Assembly: GCF_000332195.1 (NCBI RefSeq)
Contig: NZ_KB235919.1
Location: 87,038-151,037 of the forward strand
DNA from: Pleurocapsa sp. PCC 7319
GTDB taxonomy: Bacteria > Cyanobacteriota > Cyanobacteriia > Cyanobacteriales > Xenococcaceae
DNA length: 64,000 nt
Reading direction: 5' to 3'
Both the position numbers and the translations under genes were made by a program. Shown here one piece after another: positions 55,930-64,000 of the stretch. The notes beneath the pieces are model-generated. The model was given only the letters and a program-made list of their open reading frames with translations. It made no database searches and was not told where the DNA came from. Each line of letters starts with the position of its first letter. Position 1 is the first letter of the stretch.

Positions 55930-58524
55930 CTAAATATGAACATTTGTCTTTTGTTGAGCTTCATCCAAGCAAGCTCTTAACTTACCTGCTAAAACTCCTA
56001 CATGTGGTTCTTGATCGATCGTGCCGTGGCTACCACCAACAAAATGACAATCAATTCCTTCGGTTGCCAATTCTTCCCAGCTCGCTTGTTGATCTAGTCG
56101 TAAAGTACCACTGGCAAAGATGGTAATCTTACCAGGATAACTACTTGTTGGTAGATATTTAGCTCTTGCTTTAAGATGACTTCTAAAAACCTTTTTAACA
56201 TTTGCCATTAAAGGATCTGGTGCAGCTTGACTAGGTAAAAATTTCGCTTTCAACTTGCGTAATTGCTTACGATATTTGTATTCAAGGATCGTCAACAGTT
56301 GACCATTACGGCAAAAATAAGCAAAGCTTTGCCAATATTCAGCTAAAGTTTTTGTTTTTTGACTACCATTAGTATTTCTCAACTTAGAGTAGATATTAGG
56401 CGGCATTCCACCATCAATCAAAGCTAAGAGACCAACTTTTTGTCCTTGCTGTGATAATTGTCGTGCCATTTCAAAAGCAACAATCCCACCGAAACATCTT
56501 CCACCTAGATAATAAGGTCCAACAGGTTGAATTGCTCTAATTTCCTTGATGTAGTGTGCTGCCATGTCTTCAACCCGTTCATGGGGTTCGGTTTCTCCTT
56601 CCAATCCCAGGGGTTGAGGAACGTAAAATGGCTGGTCTTTACCCAGATGACGTACTAAATTAGCAAATCCTAGTAAACTATTACCTGCTGGAGGAATACA
56701 AAATAAAGTTGGACGAGAACTACCAGGTTGTGGGGGATTTAACCAGGAACTAGAATTAGTGTCTCCATTTTCGCTAATTAGCTTAGCTAACTTTTCGACT
56801 GTTGGCGCTTCTAACAACGCAGATAAGGGTAGCTTTTTGCCGAAAGAGCTTTCAATTTCCCCAATTAGGCGGAAAGCAAGGAGAGAACTACCTCCTATTT
56901 CAAAAAAGTTATCTTGAAGATGGATATCTTGGTTGTCTAAAATTTCTGACCAAAGTTCAGTCAGTCTCAATTCTAAAGCATTTCTAGGTTTAGAATTATT
57001 CGTTGATTTAGATGAAGATCTACCGGGAACTGACAAATTATTAGTGCGTTTAGCGCGTAGTTGTTGGCGATCGCGATTACTTAATACTAATAATTCACTA
57101 ATTGGTTTGGTTGGGTCAGCGACAATTTTCTCGAGTAAGGTTTGCCAATCCTCTGCCATCTTAGCGATCGACTCTGGAGAAAATAAATCGGTATTATATT
57201 TCCAGACTCCAACTAGTTCGTCTTGACACTCTGTTAAAGAAAGCGATAAATCAAAATCAGCTTTGCCATTATCTATGTCTAAGGTTTCCACAGCCAAACC
57301 AGATAGATTGGGCTTATTTTGTTCATTGTTTTGGAGGACAAACATAACTTGGGATAGTGATTTTTGTCCTAAACCAAGGTCTTGAACTAGTTGCTGTAGA
57401 GGAAAATCTTGGTGAGCATAGGAACCAGTAACTGTTTGACGTACTTGATTCAATAATTCTTGAACACTAGGATTGCCAGACAAATCACTTCTAAGAATTA
57501 GCAGGTTAACAAAATAACCCATTAACTGCTTAAGTTCTGGACGATTACGATTAGCAATGGGACTACAGACAAAAAGATCTTCTTGCTCGGTGTAAACATA
57601 AAGCAAAATCTTAAACGCCGTCAGTAAGGTAGCAAAAAGGGTTGCTCCAGATTGATAACTAAGCTGTTTAAGCTCAGCAGTAAGTGGGGCAGATATAGTT
57701 AGTTTATGAGTGGAACTTTTACGGGTGGGTACTGCTGGTGGAGAATAGTCTGTCGGGAGTGTCAAATCTGGAAGATTAGCGCCCAATTTCTCTTGCCAAT
57801 AAGAACGAAGGGCAGCCAGAAAATCACTTTGTAACCATTGGCGTTGCCAAACCGCAAAATCTGCGTACTGAATAGATAATTTTGGTAAAGGGGAGGATTC
57901 TCCCTGAACAAAAGATTCATAAAGTGAAGTTAGTTCTTGCCACAACATTCCCTCTGACCAACCATCAAAAACAATGTGGTGAACACTGATGAGTAGTATA
58001 TTTTCTTCTGGTTCTAGTTCTAGTAGAGAAGCGCGAAAGAGTAGATCACTACTGATGTCAAAAGGTTTTTGAGCTTCCTGTATTGAAAGTCGTAGTGCCT
58101 CTTGCTCCCGTTCTACCTTCGGCAATTCCTGTAAATTCTGAATAGTTAAGCTCCAGTTCTGGTCTTCAGAGGAAATGATTTGAACTGGTTTATTCTCTAC
58201 GGTGCTAAAAGTAGTTCTAAGGGCTTCATGGCGTCTGACAATTTCTTTGAGGCTCTGCTCAAGAGCGGAGATGTTGAGAGAACCGCTTAGTCGCAAAGCT
58301 AAAGGAATATTGTACGCAGTACTGCTTCCTGATTCTAATTGGTCAATAAGCCAGAGTCGCTCCTGGGTAAAAGAGAGGGGAAGATTCTGTTCGCGTGAAG
58401 TAGGAATTAAAGGTGGAGCTTGATTCTGTAAGCTAATAATAGTTCTAATTGCTTGCCAAAGATCTGCTGGAGCCTGAGCTGAGGCAGTCTGTTTTTGGGG
58501 AATTGTTTCTGTTGTATTACTCAT
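55930..58524 (-). CDS. NRPS-like protein with condensation, carrier and thioesterase domains (C-PCP-TE), no adenylation domain
   Basis: 864 aa from ATG 58524; a GTG at 58566 would add 14, and positions here are numbered from it. A condensation domain (about 58-490) has the catalytic HHIVFDG (196-202). The carrier domain has DNFFEIGGSSLL with phosphopantetheine Ser 561. The thioesterase (about 615-870) has nucleophile motif GGRCFGG with Cys691 in place of the usual Ser, and His in GGSHGTIDQEP. No adenylation domain exists, so the donor must come from elsewhere; the stand-alone ACP and ligase upstream are the obvious source. It is the last gene of the chorismate cluster and probably couples hydroxybenzoate to an unknown acceptor. 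Confidence 0.92.
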   Translation of the reverse strand: MSNTTETIPQKQTASAQAPADLWQAIRTIISLQNQAPPLIPTSREQNLPLSFTQERLWLIDQLESGSSTAYNIPLALRLSGSLNISALEQSLKEIVRRHEALRTTFSTVENKPVQIISSEDQNWSLTIQNLQELPKVEREQEALRLSIQEAQKPFDISSDLLFRASLLELEPEENILLISVHHIVFDGWSEGMLWQELTSLYESFVQGESSPLPKLSIQYADFAVWQRQWLQSDFLAALRSYWQEKLGANLPDLTLPTDYSPPAVPTRKSSTHKLTISAPLTAELKQLSYQSGATLFATLLTAFKILLYVYTEQEDLFVCSPIANRNRPELKQLMGYFVNLLILRSDLSGNPSVQELLNQVRQTVTGSYAHQDFPLQQLVQDLGLGQKSLSQVMFVLQNNEQNKPNLSGLAVETLDIDNGKADFDLSLSLTECQDELVGVWKYNTDLFSPESIAKMAEDWQTLLEKIVADPTKPISELLVLSNRDRQQLRAKRTNNLSVPGRSSSKSTNNSKPRNALELRLTELWSEILDNQDIHLQDNFFEIGGSSLLAFRLIGEIESSFGKKLPLSALLEAPTVEKLAKLISENGDTNSSSWLNPPQPGSSRPTLFCIPPAGNSLLGFANLVRHLGKDQPFYVPQPLGLEGETEPHERVEDMAAHYIKEIRAIQPVGPYYLGGRCFGGIVAFEMARQLSQQGQKVGLLALIDGGMPPNIYSKLRNTNGSQKTKTLAEYWQSFAYFCRNGQLLTILEYKYRKQLRKLKAKFLPSQAAPDPLMANVKKVFRSHLKARAKYLPTSSYPGKITIFASGTLRLDQQASWEELATEGIDCHFVGGSHGTIDQEPHVGVLAGKLRACLDEAQQKTNVHI

Positions 58525-58570
58525 AATCTTTTCTGCTATAGGTTTCGCTCTTCCAATCTGTAACACCCGA

Positions 58571-59701
58571 TTAACCTTTAGTGGTTAGTAAATTGCGAAC
58601 AAGTACTCCAGACACTTCCATGCCACAGGTGTACAAAGTAATGTTTCGGTCAGCACTTAATTTTTCATGAGCTGACAAAATAATCTTTTCTGTTTCTTCC
58701 CAGCCAATACACTTATCCGTAACAGAAACACCATATTTTAATTCCTGCAGATTTTTAGGAATTTTTTGATTGCCTTCATACAAGTTAGATTCCAACATCA
58801 TCCCAACTATGGATTGATTGCCATCGGCAATTTGTTGCAAAATATTTTCTAACACCGAAGCTTGTAATTTATGATTTTTGTGAGAGTTTCCGTGACTACA
58901 ATCGATGACAATGGTCTGCGGTAAATTTAAATCTTTGAGTTTTTGTTCTGCTCTGGTAACTGTCGCGGCATCAAAATTAGGCTGGCGATCACCACCTCGT
59001 AAAATAAGATGACTATAAGGATTACCTTTAGTTCTAAAAGTACTTACTTGCCCCTCGCGATCAAGTCCGATAAAGTTATGGGGCATCTTCGATGATTGGA
59101 TTGCATTTAAAGCCACTTGAATATTACCATCTGTACCATTTTTAAAACCCACTGGCATAGACAATCCACTTGCCATTTCCCGATGAGTTTGTGATTCAAT
59201 AGTACGAGCTCCAATAGCTGACCAAGAAATTAATTCCGCTAGATATTGAGGGGTTATCGGATCTAATGCTTCTGTAGCTACTGGTAATCCTATTTCGCCA
59301 ATTTTAATTAGTAGGTTACGAGCAGTAGATAGACCCTTCTGCATATTAAATGAACCATCCAGATCGGGATCGTTGATCAATCCTTTCCAGCCTACAGTTG
59401 TTCTGGGTTTTTCAAAGTAAACCCTCATGACAATTAATAATTTGTCTTTAACCCTCTCAGCTAAATCTTTTAGCTTTTTAGCATAATCTTCTGCAGCTTT
59501 TGGGGAGTGAATGGAGCAAGGGCCGATGATGATAAATTTTCTAGAGTCTTTGCCATCTAAAATATTTTGTAGCTCATTTCTTCCTTGTAAAACTGTTTTG
59601 GCAGCAGCTTCGGTCAAGGGTAATTGACTCTTGAGTTGAATCGGGGTCATTAAAACCTGAGAAGATTCAATATTGACATCTAGTATTTCTTTAATATTCA
59701 T
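58571..59701 (-). CDS. aroF: 3-deoxy-7-phosphoheptulonate (DAHP) synthase, class I
   Basis: A 376-aa AroF/G/H-type enzyme. It shows IIGPCSIHS (about 54-62), MRVYFEKPRTTVGWKGLINDP, GARTIESQTHREMASGLSMPVGFKNGTDG, and the metal/substrate His and Asp region IVIDCSHGNSHKNH. It joins PEP and erythrose-4-phosphate, the first step to chorismate. Placed with a chorismatase and a chorismate lyase it is best read as a pathway-dedicated copy raising precursor supply. It ends just before the NRPS gene. Confidence 0.94.
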   Translation of the reverse strand: MNIKEILDVNIESSQVLMTPIQLKSQLPLTEAAAKTVLQGRNELQNILDGKDSRKFIIIGPCSIHSPKAAEDYAKKLKDLAERVKDKLLIVMRVYFEKPRTTVGWKGLINDPDLDGSFNMQKGLSTARNLLIKIGEIGLPVATEALDPITPQYLAELISWSAIGARTIESQTHREMASGLSMPVGFKNGTDGNIQVALNAIQSSKMPHNFIGLDREGQVSTFRTKGNPYSHLILRGGDRQPNFDAATVTRAEQKLKDLNLPQTIVIDCSHGNSHKNHKLQASVLENILQQIADGNQSIVGMMLESNLYEGNQKIPKNLQELKYGVSVTDKCIGWEETEKIILSAHEKLSADRNITLYTCGMEVSGVLVRNLLTTKG

Positions 59702-59761
59702 CTTGCTTAACGAGGGGAATCAATTTAAAAAATGTGATTTGATTTGAAAAGTGGTTCTGAT

Positions 59762-60337
59762 TCAAAAGTCCGTCAGAAAATAGCTGGCGGGAAATTTTTC
59801 AGTAATCATGATAATGGGTTTACCCTGAGAAAAGACTAGATAAGTACGAGATAGAATTGAATCTTCTGGTTGAATCGGAAAATAAGTAGACAATTTACCT
59901 ACAGTTTCTTCAGCTGTATCAACTATCTCTTTAAAAGTTTCAAACTTATTTTCTAACCAGAGTCTGCCCAGAGGAGTTTTAGAGTGTAATAATTCATCTT
60001 TAAACTTTTCTTCTAATCTTTCAGTAACCAGAATTGACTCAGCATAAATAAAGTTTTTTCTGCTGATTTTTCCTTGAAGTAATATTTTCCTTTCAATTAC
60101 TTCACTACCCTGTTTAACTTCTAACGGTAAAATATCCTGTGTAATTGAAACTATTCCTTCTGATAGCTTGACTACCCGAATTTGTTCAAATAAGTAGGCT
60201 TCTAATATTTCAGTTAGTGTCCCATCAGTTGTTAGTAAGATACGCTGAAATGTACTTAGTTTTGATGGATTGATATGACTACGGATTAAAGATTGATTTA
60301 AATCTTCACGCATCAGATCAATATTATTGTTATTCAC
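59762..60337 (-). CDS. Chorismate pyruvate-lyase family protein (DUF98, UbiC-like)
   Basis: A 191-aa protein. LSTFQRILLTTDGTLTEILEAYL (about residues 27-49), RKILLQGKISRKNFIYAES (R in RK, about 82-100) and LGRLWLENKFETFKEI match the DUF98 family. Members (for example mycobacterial Rv2949c) convert chorismate to 4-hydroxybenzoate and pyruvate. It lies between the ACP and DAHP synthase genes. Both this enzyme and the chorismatase use chorismate, so the cluster may form two hydroxybenzoate isomers. Confidence 0.82.
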   Translation of the reverse strand: MNNNNIDLMREDLNQSLIRSHINPSKLSTFQRILLTTDGTLTEILEAYLFEQIRVVKLSEGIVSITQDILPLEVKQGSEVIERKILLQGKISRKNFIYAESILVTERLEEKFKDELLHSKTPLGRLWLENKFETFKEIVDTAEETVGKLSTYFPIQPEDSILSRTYLVFSQGKPIIMITEKFPASYFLTDF

Positions 60338-60428
60338 TTAAATAATTTTTGTTAGTTTTAGTTAATTGAGTTAGAACAGTTTAAGCTGAAAAGAAAAACT
60401 AGAAGAATTGAAAATTCAAGTATTATGG

Positions 60429-60683
60429 CTATGCTTTGGTTTTCTGATCGATTAATTTTACAATATCGCTGATTGTCCGAAAATTATCGAGACTAATCTC
60501 AGCATCGTTAAAAGTAATACCAAAAGCTTCTTGCAAATTAAAAATTAAGGTCATGGCATTAATCGAGTTTAATCCCAAATAAAAAATGTCCTGATCATCG
60601 TCAATTTGTTGACTATTAATATTTGGAAGTAACTCAGAAACTACATTTTTGGTTTTAAGTTTTAGTTCTTCAGTTGTCATCAT
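60429..60683 (-). CDS. Stand-alone acyl/aryl carrier protein
   Basis: An 84-aa four-helix carrier protein. The phosphopantetheine site is YLGLNSINAM with Ser40; the residue before Ser is Asn where most ACPs have Asp. It sits between the AMP ligase and chorismate lyase genes, so the likely cargo is hydroxybenzoate. XanC plays this part with XanA2 in xanthomonadin synthesis. Confidence 0.88.
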   Translation of the reverse strand: MMTTEELKLKTKNVVSELLPNINSQQIDDDQDIFYLGLNSINAMTLIFNLQEAFGITFNDAEISLDNFRTISDIVKLIDQKTKA

Positions 60684-60853
60684 GGTTGCTAAAAGTCGGT
60701 TAAAAAAGTAATAATTTGATTGGTATAAATTTGATTGAATTAATACTAGTTTTCGTTAAGATTAACATACTAGCAAAATATGATAGTAGGCAGCTAGATA
60801 TTGCAACAAGTTAATTATAATTTGCCTTATCTAGCTGAGTAAAATAGTTAGTT

Positions 60854-62377
60854 TTATACTAGATCTTTGCGCAAAATTTTACCCAAAGAACTGCGAGGTA
60901 TTTCGCTGCGAAATTCAATGATTCTGGGAATTTTAAAATCAGCTAGCTGCTCTTGACAATAGGCAATTAATTCCTCTTCCGGACACTGTTCTCGACAGAC
61001 AACAACTGCTTTAACAATCTCTCCAGTGTAGGGTTGTTTAGTTCCAACTACTACCGCTTCTTCTACATTGGGATGAGTTACTAAAACATCTTCAACTTCG
61101 AAGGGATCGACTTTATGTCCTCCTGTCTCAATAAAGATTCTTTTTCTACCAGTGATTGAAAGATAACCTTGTTCGTCTTTTTTACCTAAATCACCGGTAA
61201 AGTAGTGACCATTTTGAAACACTTCTTTGTTCACTTCAGGAGAATTATGGTATCCCTTGGTCAAAGTTTGACTGGTAATTACTAATTCGCCTTCCAGACC
61301 AGGAGGTAATTCTTGTCCGCGATCGCCAATTACTTTAATCTCAACATTATGCATTGGTAAACCAATAGAATCGTATTTAACATCTTGGCTACTTTGCATA
61401 TTAATGGCTACTGAACCTGCTTCTGTACAACCATAAAGCTGTCGCAGAGGAATGCCAAACCGTTGTAAAAACTTATCAAAAATGTCTTGAGAGAGGAAGT
61501 TCCCCGCCGATATACACAATCGAAGACTTGGTAATTCAGCATATGTATCTGCTGGTGCTGCTGCCAGGATGCTAAAGATATAAGGAACAGCAGGTAGAAT
61601 TGTGATCTTTTCTTGCTCAATTAATTCTAGAACGCGAGCCCGACGGAAAACAAAGGGCATCTCTACTGGGACACCGTCCTGCAAAAACGGTTCTAAAATT
61701 GTTAGGGTGGCTCCTGAACAGATTGCTGCCAGTAAACATTCACCAAATCCATAGGCATGATACAGCGGTACAAGACAAAGAATGTTATCGGAGCTTGTTA
61801 CCTGCAGTGTCTCAACACAATTAATTGCTTGATGATAGAGATTATTCTGGGTACGACAGACTCTTTTGGGTCTTCCTGTAGAACCCGATGAATATTGATA
61901 AAGAACATCTCCTAAATAGGATTCTTCTGGCTGCCAATCTCCAAAATCAGACTGGATCAAGTTGTTAAACGCCAGACCAACAGTGGGTTTCTCTGAGACT
62001 ACAATTAAATCAACAGAGCGTTCCAAGCGGGAAATTGCCTGATGACAAGCTTCAGCTCTAATACTATCAGTAATAATAACTTTGGCATTACTATCCCGGA
62101 GGTAGTGTTCCAGTTCGTTTTCTTTGAATCCTGGATTTAGCAACAGAGCGATCGCATTCAAGGAGGTGACCGCACAAAAACTAACCACAAACTCAGGACA
62201 ATTAGGTAAGATTAAAGCGACACAATCTGATTGTTGAACCCCTAAAACACTTAGACCTTGGCTAAATCCTCGCACTTGTTGCTCAAGTTCTTGATAACTA
62301 GTTCGGGTTTGACCATAGACAAGAGCTGTTTTGTCAGGTTGCTCTGCTACAGTCTTTTGAAGCATTTGATATAGCAT
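60854..62377 (-). CDS. AMP-dependent aryl-acid ligase (hydroxybenzoate-activating type)
   Basis: A 507-aa ANL-family enzyme. Core motifs are YQYSSGSTGRPKRV (about 166-179), YGCTEAGS near 318, YFTGDLG, GRKRIFIETGGHKVDPFEVE and catalytic Lys in SSLGKILRKDL at the C-terminus. Length and one-domain design fit ligases that load benzoate or hydroxybenzoate on a separate carrier (FadD22/XanA2-like) and not modular NRPS A domains. Substrate is inferred from the adjacent chorismatase and lyase. It lies 170 bases before the ACP gene. Confidence 0.88.
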   Translation of the reverse strand: MLYQMLQKTVAEQPDKTALVYGQTRTSYQELEQQVRGFSQGLSVLGVQQSDCVALILPNCPEFVVSFCAVTSLNAIALLLNPGFKENELEHYLRDSNAKVIITDSIRAEACHQAISRLERSVDLIVVSEKPTVGLAFNNLIQSDFGDWQPEESYLGDVLYQYSSGSTGRPKRVCRTQNNLYHQAINCVETLQVTSSDNILCLVPLYHAYGFGECLLAAICSGATLTILEPFLQDGVPVEMPFVFRRARVLELIEQEKITILPAVPYIFSILAAAPADTYAELPSLRLCISAGNFLSQDIFDKFLQRFGIPLRQLYGCTEAGSVAINMQSSQDVKYDSIGLPMHNVEIKVIGDRGQELPPGLEGELVITSQTLTKGYHNSPEVNKEVFQNGHYFTGDLGKKDEQGYLSITGRKRIFIETGGHKVDPFEVEDVLVTHPNVEEAVVVGTKQPYTGEIVKAVVVCREQCPEEELIAYCQEQLADFKIPRIIEFRSEIPRSSLGKILRKDLV

Positions 62378-62427
62378 AATCGATAAAAAAGAATCTGAGA
62401 TATAAAGAAATTAAGTTAAAGAGTTGA

Positions 62428-63423
62428 CTATTTTTCTTGGATAACGGCTTCGATTTCGATATCTAGTTCATAGCGACAGATATCTGAACGCAGGTAAATA
62501 ATATGGTCTTCCTCAGTGGCTAAAATACTTTGAGGAAATAACTCTCGAACTATGGCAGCATCAGATTCGCGGCGAATATAAACTTTGAAAAAGCGATCAT
62601 ACTTCGCCGAATCGGGCATCAGACTGCCGAAACTCATCCGTTCGTGTACTAACCCCATATTCATAAACACTAAACTCATATTGTCGAGGGTAGTATACAT
62701 CTGTTCGGCAACGTCACTAAGAGTTACTGACTTGTGGCTTTTAATGCTAGCCGTACCAGATAAATAACCGACACGTTTACCTCCAAGCTCGATCACCGTT
62801 CCCCTAGCAAAACTAGGAGATCGAGGTCCATATTGTTGAGGATATTTGAATGCTGAAACTTGTTCGGGATTCTCGATGTGGGTAGCTTCGGCTTTTCCTG
62901 CTATAAAATACAGCACTAATTTGCGATCGTTGATACCCACCGCTGATGCTGCTGGTAATTTAACCTCAAAATCAGTGCCATAAAACGCTTCAAAAGCTAG
63001 AGAACGTCCTTTACAAAAAGATTTATAATTTTCTAAAGCAGAAGTTTCATTGTTGATGTAAGGAACATAGTTCCAGACACGAAACAAGTTCCAGTCTTTG
63101 GTTAATTCTAGAAAGTCCATGTAGACTTCATAGGCAGCTTTTTCCAAAGGAAAGTCGACCTCTTTAACTAGAACACCAGCTAAATATTCCTCTGATTCTA
63201 TAAGTTGAAAACCAAGACGACTATGAATACGTCCAGGTTGCGAGGCAATTCGCTCGCGACTATCTTGACCCAAAACAGGAATTTTAACATAGAGATCGAT
63301 ACCATTTTCGGTAGAGACGCAGCGAGTTTCTTCACGACCAAATAGTACCTGTAGGGTCTTATTTGGTAGATTTGTTTTTTCACTGTTGCTTGGGGTTTTA
63401 GATTCTACGGTTGTCATAAACAT
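62428..63423 (-). CDS. Chorismatase (FkbO/Hyg5/XanB2 family)
   Basis: About 331 aa from ATG 63423 (ATG 63417 and TTG 63435 are alternatives; numbering is from the TTG). Family signatures include FRVWNYVPYINN, YKSFCKGRSLAFE, LPAASAVGI, YPQQYGPRSPSFARG, SGTASIKSH and the C-terminal CRYELDIEIEA. These enzymes remove pyruvate from chorismate, giving 3-hydroxybenzoate (Hyg5/XanB2) or dihydroxycyclohexadiene carboxylate (FkbO). The Cys320-x6-Glu327 spacing equals that of the Hyg5 active-site Cys and Glu as I recall them, favouring 3-hydroxybenzoate. It heads the cluster, 50 bases before the ligase gene. Confidence 0.9.
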   Translation of the reverse strand: MFMTTVESKTPSNSEKTNLPNKTLQVLFGREETRCVSTENGIDLYVKIPVLGQDSRERIASQPGRIHSRLGFQLIESEEYLAGVLVKEVDFPLEKAAYEVYMDFLELTKDWNLFRVWNYVPYINNETSALENYKSFCKGRSLAFEAFYGTDFEVKLPAASAVGINDRKLVLYFIAGKAEATHIENPEQVSAFKYPQQYGPRSPSFARGTVIELGGKRVGYLSGTASIKSHKSVTLSDVAEQMYTTLDNMSLVFMNMGLVHERMSFGSLMPDSAKYDRFFKVYIRRESDAAIVRELFPQSILATEEDHIIYLRSDICRYELDIEIEAVIQEK

Positions 63424-63494
63424 CGCAATCACCAATAAATTTTACTATGGTTAAAGTCTAAGTTATATAATTTGAAGTCTTTTTCAGCTTTTGA

Positions 63495-64000
63495 CTAAGC
63501 AATAATCTTGAGGTTTTCACTGCCGAAAGTCGGTAGATTAGATAAGTAGGCAATATCTACTACAGACTCAGAACCATTACCATCTGGATCAAAACTGAGC
63601 AGACCATCATCCGAATTGTAGATAACATAGGGACAAATTCCATATGGGCATGGATTATAATCAATAAATACTCCAGTTTTCCTGGGGTGTGGCCTTAAAT
63701 TCTCGTCAGGAACCAAGCTAGTATCAAATCCCGATGCAGAGATTAAGATATGATCGTCGCCATCAAAATCAGTAATCGTATCTAATTCTGAATCTAAATT
63801 TTCATACACAAAGTTATCTGCACCTTGACCCCCAGCCAGAATATCTGCGCCACCATAACCAAACAAAATATTTGCCTGGTCATTACCTGTCAATTGATCG
63901 CTAAATGCTGTCCCGGTAATATGATCGATTTCCGAAAGCGTTTCTGATTCTACTAAAGCATCATACCAAGCATTTCCAATCTCTTGATATCCTGTGCTAT
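63495..64000 (-). CDS. RTX-type calcium-binding repeat protein, C-terminal part (cut by window edge)
   Basis: The minus-strand frame is open to the right edge, beyond a TTG at 63893, and reads ITGTAFSDQLTGNDQANILF before GYGGADILAGGQGADNFVYE. These are RTX nonapeptides (GGxGxDxLx) that bind Ca2+ outside the cell. The end (DPDGNGSESVVDIAYLSNLP) is the usual RTX tail for type I secretion. An insert PRKTGVFIDYNPCPYGICPYV adds two Cys not typical for RTX. The N-terminal function lies outside the window. It precedes the chorismatase by about 70 bases but is unlikely to share its pathway. Confidence 0.82.
   Translation of the reverse strand, partial: STGYQEIGNAWYDALVESETLSEIDHITGTAFSDQLTGNDQANILFGYGGADILAGGQGADNFVYENLDSELDTITDFDGDDHILISASGFDTSLVPDENLRPHPRKTGVFIDYNPCPYGICPYVIYNSDDGLLSFDPDGNGSESVVDIAYLSNLPTFGSENLKIIA

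Follow-up and report, generated by a model that had tools for sequence, protein, structure and literature searches.

The 64 kb stretch of DNA analysed here, called the window (G000:C4:87038-151037), comes from the 7.39 Mb genome of Pleurocapsa sp. PCC 7319. It contains a cluster of six genes for a chorismatase, an aryl-AMP ligase, a stand-alone carrier protein (ACP), a DUF98 chorismate lyase, a 3-deoxy-D-arabino-heptulosonate 7-phosphate (DAHP) synthase and a nonribosomal peptide synthetase (NRPS) protein. The last consists of condensation (C), peptidyl carrier protein (PCP) and thioesterase (TE) domains and has no adenylation (A) domain. The cluster probably represents a compact aryl-starter NRPS pathway, in which 3-hydroxybenzoic acid (3-HBA) would be activated, loaded on the ACP and condensed by the A-less C-PCP-TE protein; the probability of this reading is put at about 0.68. 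The same six genes on one strand had been named in a sequence-only reading of this DNA. Their coordinates agree with the present ones, and the domains were confirmed by Pfam and NCBIfam profiles with family cut-offs (Table 1). The open reading frames (ORFs) are separated by gaps of 4-170 bp; their start codons (TTG, GTG) were assigned mechanically, and the true starts possibly lie a few codons away.

Table 1. Genes of the cluster, with positions in the window and supporting profiles or motifs.
Gene product	Position	Strand	Profile, domain or motif
Chorismatase, FkbO/Hyg5/XanB2 superfamily	62428..63435	-	PF21168 73.6 bits (cut-off 27)
Aryl-AMP ligase, chorismatase-linked clade	60854..62377	-	AMP-binding + AMP-binding_C
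Stand-alone acyl/aryl carrier protein (ACP)	60429..60683	-	PP-binding; LGLNS serine
Putative dedicated chorismate lyase, DUF98/Rv2949c-like	59762..60337	-	PF01947 68.3 bits (cut-off 22)
Type I DAHP synthase	58571..59701	-	NF009395, TIGR00034 above cut-off
A-less NRPS protein C-PCP-TE	55930..58566	-	Condensation 59-503, PP-binding 534-597, Thioesterase 620-854

The six genes are real, intact and evolving under purifying selection. In comparison with the locus L009 of the same-genus relative Pleurocapsa sp. MO_192.B19 (genome G020, carrying L007/L009), dN/dS is 0.063 for the chorismatase, 0.073 for the ligase, 0.072 for the ACP, 0.148 for the lyase and 0.065 for the DAHP synthase. The value for the C-PCP-TE gene is 0.092 against L009, where only the C part is comparable and dS is 2.7, near saturation, and 0.131 against L023. 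Intact motifs include HHIVFDG in the C domain, GGSS in the PCP, GGRCFGG in the TE (with Cys at the nucleophile position) and LGLNS in the ACP. The search for the same six-gene order in relatives, proposed in the sequence-only reading, was successful: all six genes stand in this order in L009, up to a contig end inside the C domain, and in Symplocastrum L011, which has one extra gene for a luciferase-like monooxygenase (LLM) after the ligase. Since the same gene order recurs in both loci, the set is more than a chance assembly.

The chorismatase is assigned to its family by PF21168 and by the active-site glutamate, Glu327 being aligned with Hyg5 Glu334. Together with it, Cys320 and the Gly of an SGT motif correspond to Hyg5 C327 and G240 (numbers counted from the alignment). 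The TIGR04444 score of 179 bits, below the cut-off of 325, marks a divergent member. The roles of the residues in CH-II chorismatases (Hyg5-type, making 3-HBA only) are given in PMC7170507. In the Gly/Gly/Cys set of this class (Nat-hyg5 164/231/318), the second Gly and the Cys are kept in the window protein and the first Gly is replaced by Ala. The same Ala occupies the Hyg5 G173 position in each of the 7 cyanobacterial sequences that were aligned, out of 9 detected, and in 6/6 proteobacterial homologues, with which the cyanobacterial chorismatases share 33-39% identity. As stated in PMC3949708, alignment alone cannot accurately predict the reaction of a chorismatase. The window enzyme likely makes 3-HBA from chorismate, and some 4-hydroxybenzoic acid (4-HBA) might be formed too, a mixture of both acids being the mark of the CH-III (XanB2-type) class.

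The ligase was compared among 28 distinct loci, obtained after merging repeats and including the window. In the ligase tree, the 9 chorismatase-linked proteins and the 19 others are split at 100/100. A smaller tree of 14 ligases had already shown this split, and L079 and L080, added later, landed on the expected side. Moreover, chorismatase and ligase are fused as one ORF in L013 and L014. Nine ligase positions separated the first 14 proteins perfectly; this pocket rule was dropped, as five of them fail in the extended set, 209 and 289 for L088/L092 and 82, 183 and 184 for other loci. Positions 187, 213, 269 and 270 are the only ones still separating the 9 chorismatase-linked ligases from 16 labelled lyase-type, among which L023 is so labelled though its contig stops before any lyase; because each ligase group is a clade, the separating positions amount to one change. 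Tyr209 and Ile289 align with Tyr236 and Lys303 of poplar 4CL, residues which we take to line the acid pocket. A free-standing ligase and a carrier protein, as expected of an aryl-starter NRPS, are present by gene content, and the ligase presumably loads 3-HBA on the ACP. It is the only ligase of this family in the window genome and is of the chorismatase type.

The lyase combines PF01947 with Arg, YA.S, R.Y and I.E.F positions that it has in common with the housekeeping lyase, and is thus Rv2949c-like. Its NF037993 score is 38.8, below the cut-off of 175. A housekeeping cyanobacterial chorismate lyase is encoded elsewhere in the genome (291 bits vs 38 for the cluster protein), and a housekeeping role for the cluster gene was rejected on this ground. 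The latter appears to encode a second, dedicated chorismate lyase and to be a source of 4-HBA. Because the lyase is kept and under selection, 4-HBA probably still matters as a second substrate or acceptor. The dS of the lyase gene between the window and L009 is 0.43, lower than in four neighbours (0.8-1.3) and in the C part (2.7); the lyase gene was perhaps exchanged recently and independently of the rest. The DAHP synthase would feed the shikimate pathway. A listing of 3-HBA and 4-HBA by high-performance liquid chromatography in a Leptolyngbya (PMC5153682) is too weak and was not used.

The C domain of the window has Phe200 before the catalytic Asp. The same residue is Phe in 12/13 A-less C domains from loci without a halogenase (Cys in L021a), and in 5/5 A-containing C domains (L013, L021b and the first C domain of L083, L084 and L087) that would be fed by the neighbouring ligase-ACP pair. 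Ile or Val stands there in 8/8 halogenase-bearing loci, described below. The other C domains comprise 20 hand-picked of 87 matches, 5 later domains of L083/L084/L087 and 3 A-less domains from other settings. Phe, Ile or Val occurs in 0/23 of those aligned and Phe in 0/28 overall, the five read outside the alignment having Met, Ile (in an aberrant HHTAIGG motif) and three times Cys. EntF, whose donor we take to be 2,3-dihydroxybenzoyl, has Val. Residue 200 is predicted to touch the donor ring, and hydroxybenzoyl-ACP is probably the donor for this C domain.

The condensing protein had already been described as adenylation-free, and rightly so: no A domain lies between the C domain, which ends at residue 503, and the PCP, which begins at 534, as it would in a terminal C-A-PCP-TE protein. 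The C-domain tree of 47 rows sets the 24 domains followed by an A domain apart at 99/93 from 23 A-less ones, and the A-containing C domains predicted to share the hydroxybenzoyl donor fall within the 99/93 group. Of the A-less domains, 18 from hydroxybenzoate loci group together as a clade (100/99), and those of L012, L021a, L022 and L024a/b branch outside it. Recent loss of the A domain in the window was rejected, since all A-less C domains are on one side of the supported branch; the tree shows what is evidently an old and coherent lineage, not recent decay. Residue 334 is Cys in A-less and Gly in A-containing domains in 48/48 readable rows, a contrast that amounts to one change on the tree (1 independent pair) and lacks power. 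A-less rows have Gln391, as the window does beside its Cys334, vs Glu, Ser or Asp elsewhere. Asp/Asn437 and Tyr351 stand in the A-less rows printed, Tyr351 in L062 as well. A CSPxAxR motif is common to the A-less C domains and lacking in those with an A domain. This signature suggests an acceptor other than the usual aminoacyl-PCP. A-less proteins also occur in other settings: L022:4470-7154 encodes a C-PCP-TE protein near PKS-like (polyketide synthase-like) genes, and L024:3315-8901 encodes two in tandem near sulfotransferase-like genes (neighbours judged by eye in both cases). These have Cys334 and no donor-site Phe.

Within the aryl-starter reading, three acceptors are considered. The acceptor may be a substrate that an unlinked A domain loads in trans or, with equal probability, a free alcohol, amine or sugar; only slightly less probable is a second hydroxybenzoate, activated by the ligase of the cluster and giving a depside. 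Among the 20 loci where the A-less protein was verified, 19 showed no second activating domain in the stretches analysed (7-64 kb, some cut), and tblastn of the 64 kb window and the next 18 kb gave no further AMP-binding domain. With no second activating domain found in these 19/20 loci, double loading by one ligase, or a free acceptor, is plausible enough to test. An unlikely but more far-reaching proposal is that the A-less CSPxAxR C-PCP-TE proteins form a distinct condensation subtype without an amino-acid partner. One ligase would then load hydroxybenzoate on both ACP and PCP, the C domain would join the two units into aryl esters (depsides), and mixed 3-HBA/4-HBA products would arise where both chorismate enzymes are kept.

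The window protein could, on the other hand, be part of an ordinary amide-forming mono-modular NRPS, in which an unlinked A domain loads an amino acid on the PCP and the 3-hydroxybenzoyl group is added to it. Such an arrangement would agree with L013, L021b, L083, L084 and L087, where a C and then an A domain stand beside the same kind of ligase-ACP pair. It would also agree with the PCP serine, kept in every readable A-less PCP (L009 and L012 are cut before it), and with seven other C-domain matches in the genome, which make other A domains probable. The 99/93 split of C domains and the residue 334 difference, though the latter is one tree change, argue against an ordinary mechanism, as does the lack of a second activating domain in the stretches analysed of 19/20 A-less loci; this explanation is held to be somewhat doubtful. 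The A-domain codes of L013 and L021b, read by eye, gave no substrate call.

Under the preferred aryl-starter reading, the DAHP synthase would raise shikimate flux, the chorismatase would convert chorismate into 3-HBA, and the ligase would adenylate 3-HBA and load the ACP, as proposed from protein family and linkage. The C domain, as residue 200 and linkage suggest, would take 3-hydroxybenzoyl-ACP as the donor and join the 3-hydroxybenzoyl group to an acceptor that is either bound to the neighbouring PCP or passes over it, after which the TE would free the conjugate. The make-load-condense logic of the sequence-only reading is in this way partly supported, having gained the ligase-chorismatase fusion in 2 loci and the donor-site Phe; the amine or alcohol proposed there as acceptor is one candidate among those above.

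Several points weigh against this pathway. The Ala in place of one of three reported CH-II glycines makes the product specificity of the chorismatase uncertain, ligase residues 209 and 289, aligned with the 4CL pocket, do not hold in L088 and L092, and a single chorismatase-type ligase leaves 4-HBA without an obvious ligase. The relation of Phe200 to donor class comes down to 3 independent pairs (2 agreeing, 1 without a difference) and has no significance, and L021a has Cys at this site. In the HHxxxDG motif, Gln replaces the second His in L011 and L080, and Asn the first in L012; the C domains of these three chorismatase loci are perhaps inactive or work in another way. Ala, Phe or Lys takes the place of the motif Gly in L013/L021b and the halogenase loci. 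Finally, the TE nucleophile is not constant among relatives: the position holds Cys in the window, L023, L037 and L039, whereas most of the remaining A-less proteins have Ser there, and L011 and L021a have Tyr-Cys or Phe-Cys. It was set aside as a clue to release chemistry for this reason.

The cluster belongs to a wider family. At E <= 1e-110 the ligase was found in 4/386 phylum, 6/27 family and 25/388 order genomes. The chorismatase was found in 2/27 family and 2/386 phylum genomes; the samples overlap, and each count includes the window genome. A chorismatase scan of species-representative genomes gave 12 loci, 6 cyanobacterial and 6 proteobacterial. The ACP is present in 26/28 ligase loci, and both misses (L040, L092) end at contig ends. 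The A-less C-PCP protein was verified in 20/28 loci, the L012 copy being cut inside the PCP; that of L009 breaks off within C. C-A-PCP proteins replace it in L013, L083, L084 and L087, and L014/L021 has both types; the condensing protein is absent from the L086 stretch, and L040 and L092 are cut. The chorismatase is present in 9 loci (window, L009-L014, L079, L080), of which only the window, L009 and L011 also have the DUF98 lyase. The lyase was seen in 15/19 loci without the chorismatase. L023 is cut before the lyase position, and at the threshold used no lyase was detected in L083, L084 and L086, L084 having a 25% match. The family core thus consists of the aryl-AMP ligase, the stand-alone ACP and usually the A-less C-PCP-TE protein, and the source of the aromatic unit varies. 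The exact six-gene set emphasised in the sequence-only reading is co-conserved; it is, however, one member of this wider family, whose clusters can do without the chorismatase, the lyase or the DAHP synthase.

Several variants extend the family. An LLM (MupA/Atu3671-like) gene lies between ligase and ACP in L011, L013, L014/L021 and L080 and not in the window. Eight lyase-type loci (L035, L036, L081, L082, L085, L089, L090, L091) carry a flavin-halogenase-like gene with the WxWxIP motif, which we take to mark halogenases, in 8/8. A gene for a PobA-like 4-hydroxybenzoate 3-monooxygenase accompanies it in 7/8; L085 starts at a contig end before that position. The proteins scanned (3/3) score above the NF006091 subfamily cut-off and below the TIGR02360 equivalog cut-off. 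The PobA-like gene points to 4-HBA chemistry in these lyase clusters, and their products are perhaps halogenated or hydroxylated 4-HBA derivatives. In the lyase-type locus L089, a type I PKS gene lies ~2 kb upstream. L083, L084 and L087 have a similar ligase-ACP pair ahead of large NRPS proteins beginning with C-A-PCP-C, and apparently make hydroxybenzoyl-started multimodular peptides. In L086:6841-11456 the ligase and ACP have a choline/carnitine O-acyltransferase (PF00755, 514 bits) on one side and a sulfotransferase on the other, and a different acceptor enzyme perhaps serves the same carrier there.

The gene trees show that the window cluster is made up of two parts: a chorismatase-type part, with the chorismatase and the ligase, and a part with the lyase, DAHP synthase and C-PCP-TE protein that matches the lyase-type clusters of its own family. 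It is thus a mosaic. The window ligase falls in the chorismatase clade, and the C-PCP-TE protein groups with the own-family lyase-type clusters L023, L039 and L037. The groups for the approximately unbiased (AU) tests were chosen after the trees had been seen, by which all p-values below are formally weakened. Placing the window C-PCP-TE protein with L010, L079, L011 and L080, the other intact proteins of chorismatase loci tested, was rejected (lnL 484 lower, p 6e-48), as was placing the window and L009 ligases with the lyase-type ligases of the family (p 5e-53). A single clade of window, L009 and L011 was rejected for the lyases (p 1e-4) and likewise for the DAHP synthases (p 0.004); for the ACP the same test was uninformative (p 0.35). 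Two histories could account for this pattern. A chorismatase-ligase cassette might have joined a resident lyase-DAHP synthase-C-PCP-TE (4-HBA) cluster, or the lyase, DAHP synthase and C-PCP-TE genes of an L011-like six-gene cluster might have been exchanged with resident ones. The own-family lyase-type order in L037 and L039 is lyase-ligase-DAHP synthase-ACP-C-PCP-TE. The gene order of the window, shared with L011 and unlike that of L037/L039, tends to favour the exchange history; for the same reason cassette insertion is not regarded as the simplest origin. The genome G020 appears to carry both cluster types (chorismatase-bearing L009 and L023).

The cluster is embedded among polysaccharide genes. 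One flank encodes Wzz, Wzy_C, a flippase, glycosyltransferases and a methyltransferase. The other encodes a GDSL-RTX hydrolase, a DRL-like oxidoreductase (its DRL domain scanned on the L039 homologue), a dTDP-sugar epimerase, nucleotidyl transferases, a capsular NKWYS protein, a polysaccharide lyase, a hexapeptide transferase and glycosyltransferases. The GDSL-RTX gene adjoins the cluster (window 63495-63998, continuing in L001:1033-2286) and does so in L009 and L039 too. These surroundings raise the possibility of surface-glycan decoration, with the carrier passing hydroxybenzoate to a sugar of the exopolysaccharide for which the surrounding genes code. L009, L037 and L039 likewise have a GDSL or DRL-like neighbour, yet the linkage was seen only in the cluster's own family: DRL-like genes occur in 3/27 and GDSL genes in 2/27 other loci (several too short to show them), the other loci listed have different neighbours, and nothing ties the C-PCP-TE protein itself to a glycan. 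Decoration of this kind is considered distinctly unlikely.

The chorismatase, ligase and ACP of the window fit the logic of xanthomonadin (XanB2-XanA2-XanC) and arcuflavin initiation (PMC3949708), and the cluster might be the initiation part of such an aryl-polyene pathway with its chain-building genes elsewhere. The absence of a ketosynthase, as noted from the sequence earlier, was confirmed for the 6 proteins scanned to the left of the cluster and the 15 to its right, among which neither a linked ketosynthase nor chain-length factor (CLF), ketoreductase (KR) or dehydratase (DH) was found, and a condensing NRPS protein is present instead. The proteobacterial loci L015, L018 and L019, in contrast, do have a ketosynthase near the chorismatase. 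With no chain-building genes in the flanks scanned, the aryl-polyene pathway was rejected as highly improbable. The xanthomonadin likeness drawn in the sequence-only reading holds for the initiation step and for nothing beyond it.

The aryl-starter NRPS logic is seen here in what appears to be a new form: the front end that draws on chorismate can be swapped, and the terminal condensing protein is A-less and of distinct lineage. It defines a recurrent orphan cyanobacterial cluster family with a mix-and-match front end, comprising chorismatase, lyase and halogenase/hydroxylase variants. The A-less C-domain signature could be used for mining, as could the candidate rule for the donor site, by which Phe gives way to Ile/Val where a halogenase is present. 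Should a second hydroxybenzoate or a free alcohol prove to be the acceptor, condensation domains without an adenylation partner would act on purely aromatic blocks, and phototrophs would have a short route to aryl esters that is open to testing.

No described cyanobacterial pathway with this gene set had been known to the sequence-only reading, and none was found among the matches listed in the open-access literature, with the ambigol cluster outside the comparison. The closest architecture is that of the EntE-EntB-EntF and obafluorin type of aryl-starter NRPS, which has in common with the window a stand-alone aryl-AMP ligase, an aryl carrier protein and terminal C, PCP and TE domains. In ObiF the TE nucleophile is presumably Cys. 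Unlike EntF, the window protein has no A domain between C and PCP and has Cys334 where EntF has Gly; unlike the EntE system, which uses isochorismate-derived 2,3-dihydroxybenzoate, the window would use a monohydroxybenzoate made via chorismatase. The mycobacterial Rv2949c/FadD22 pair, which provides p-hydroxybenzoate loading for phenolic glycolipids, likewise combines an Rv2949c-family lyase with an AMP ligase; a PKS extends the starter there, whereas the window has an NRPS C-PCP-TE protein. Xanthomonadin (XanB2-XanA2-XanC) and arcuflavin initiation resemble the window in a chorismatase, ligase and ACP supplying 3-HBA (PMC3949708), and differ in the polyene-building enzymes, not found in the window flanks scanned. 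The ambigol and bmp/hs_bmp clusters resemble the 8 halogenase-bearing sister clusters in joining a dedicated chorismate lyase and a flavin halogenase in cyanobacteria; as described in PMC6520454, the bmp core consists of halogenase, lyase and P450, without the ligase, ACP and C-PCP-TE protein. The Nat-hyg5/unantimycin system, as described in PMC7170507, has a multimodular NRPS-PKS in place of the single A-less C-PCP-TE protein and differs from the window at one CH-II residue, which is Ala here. It resembles the window in that an FkbO/Hyg5 chorismatase supplies 3-HBA to an NRPS.

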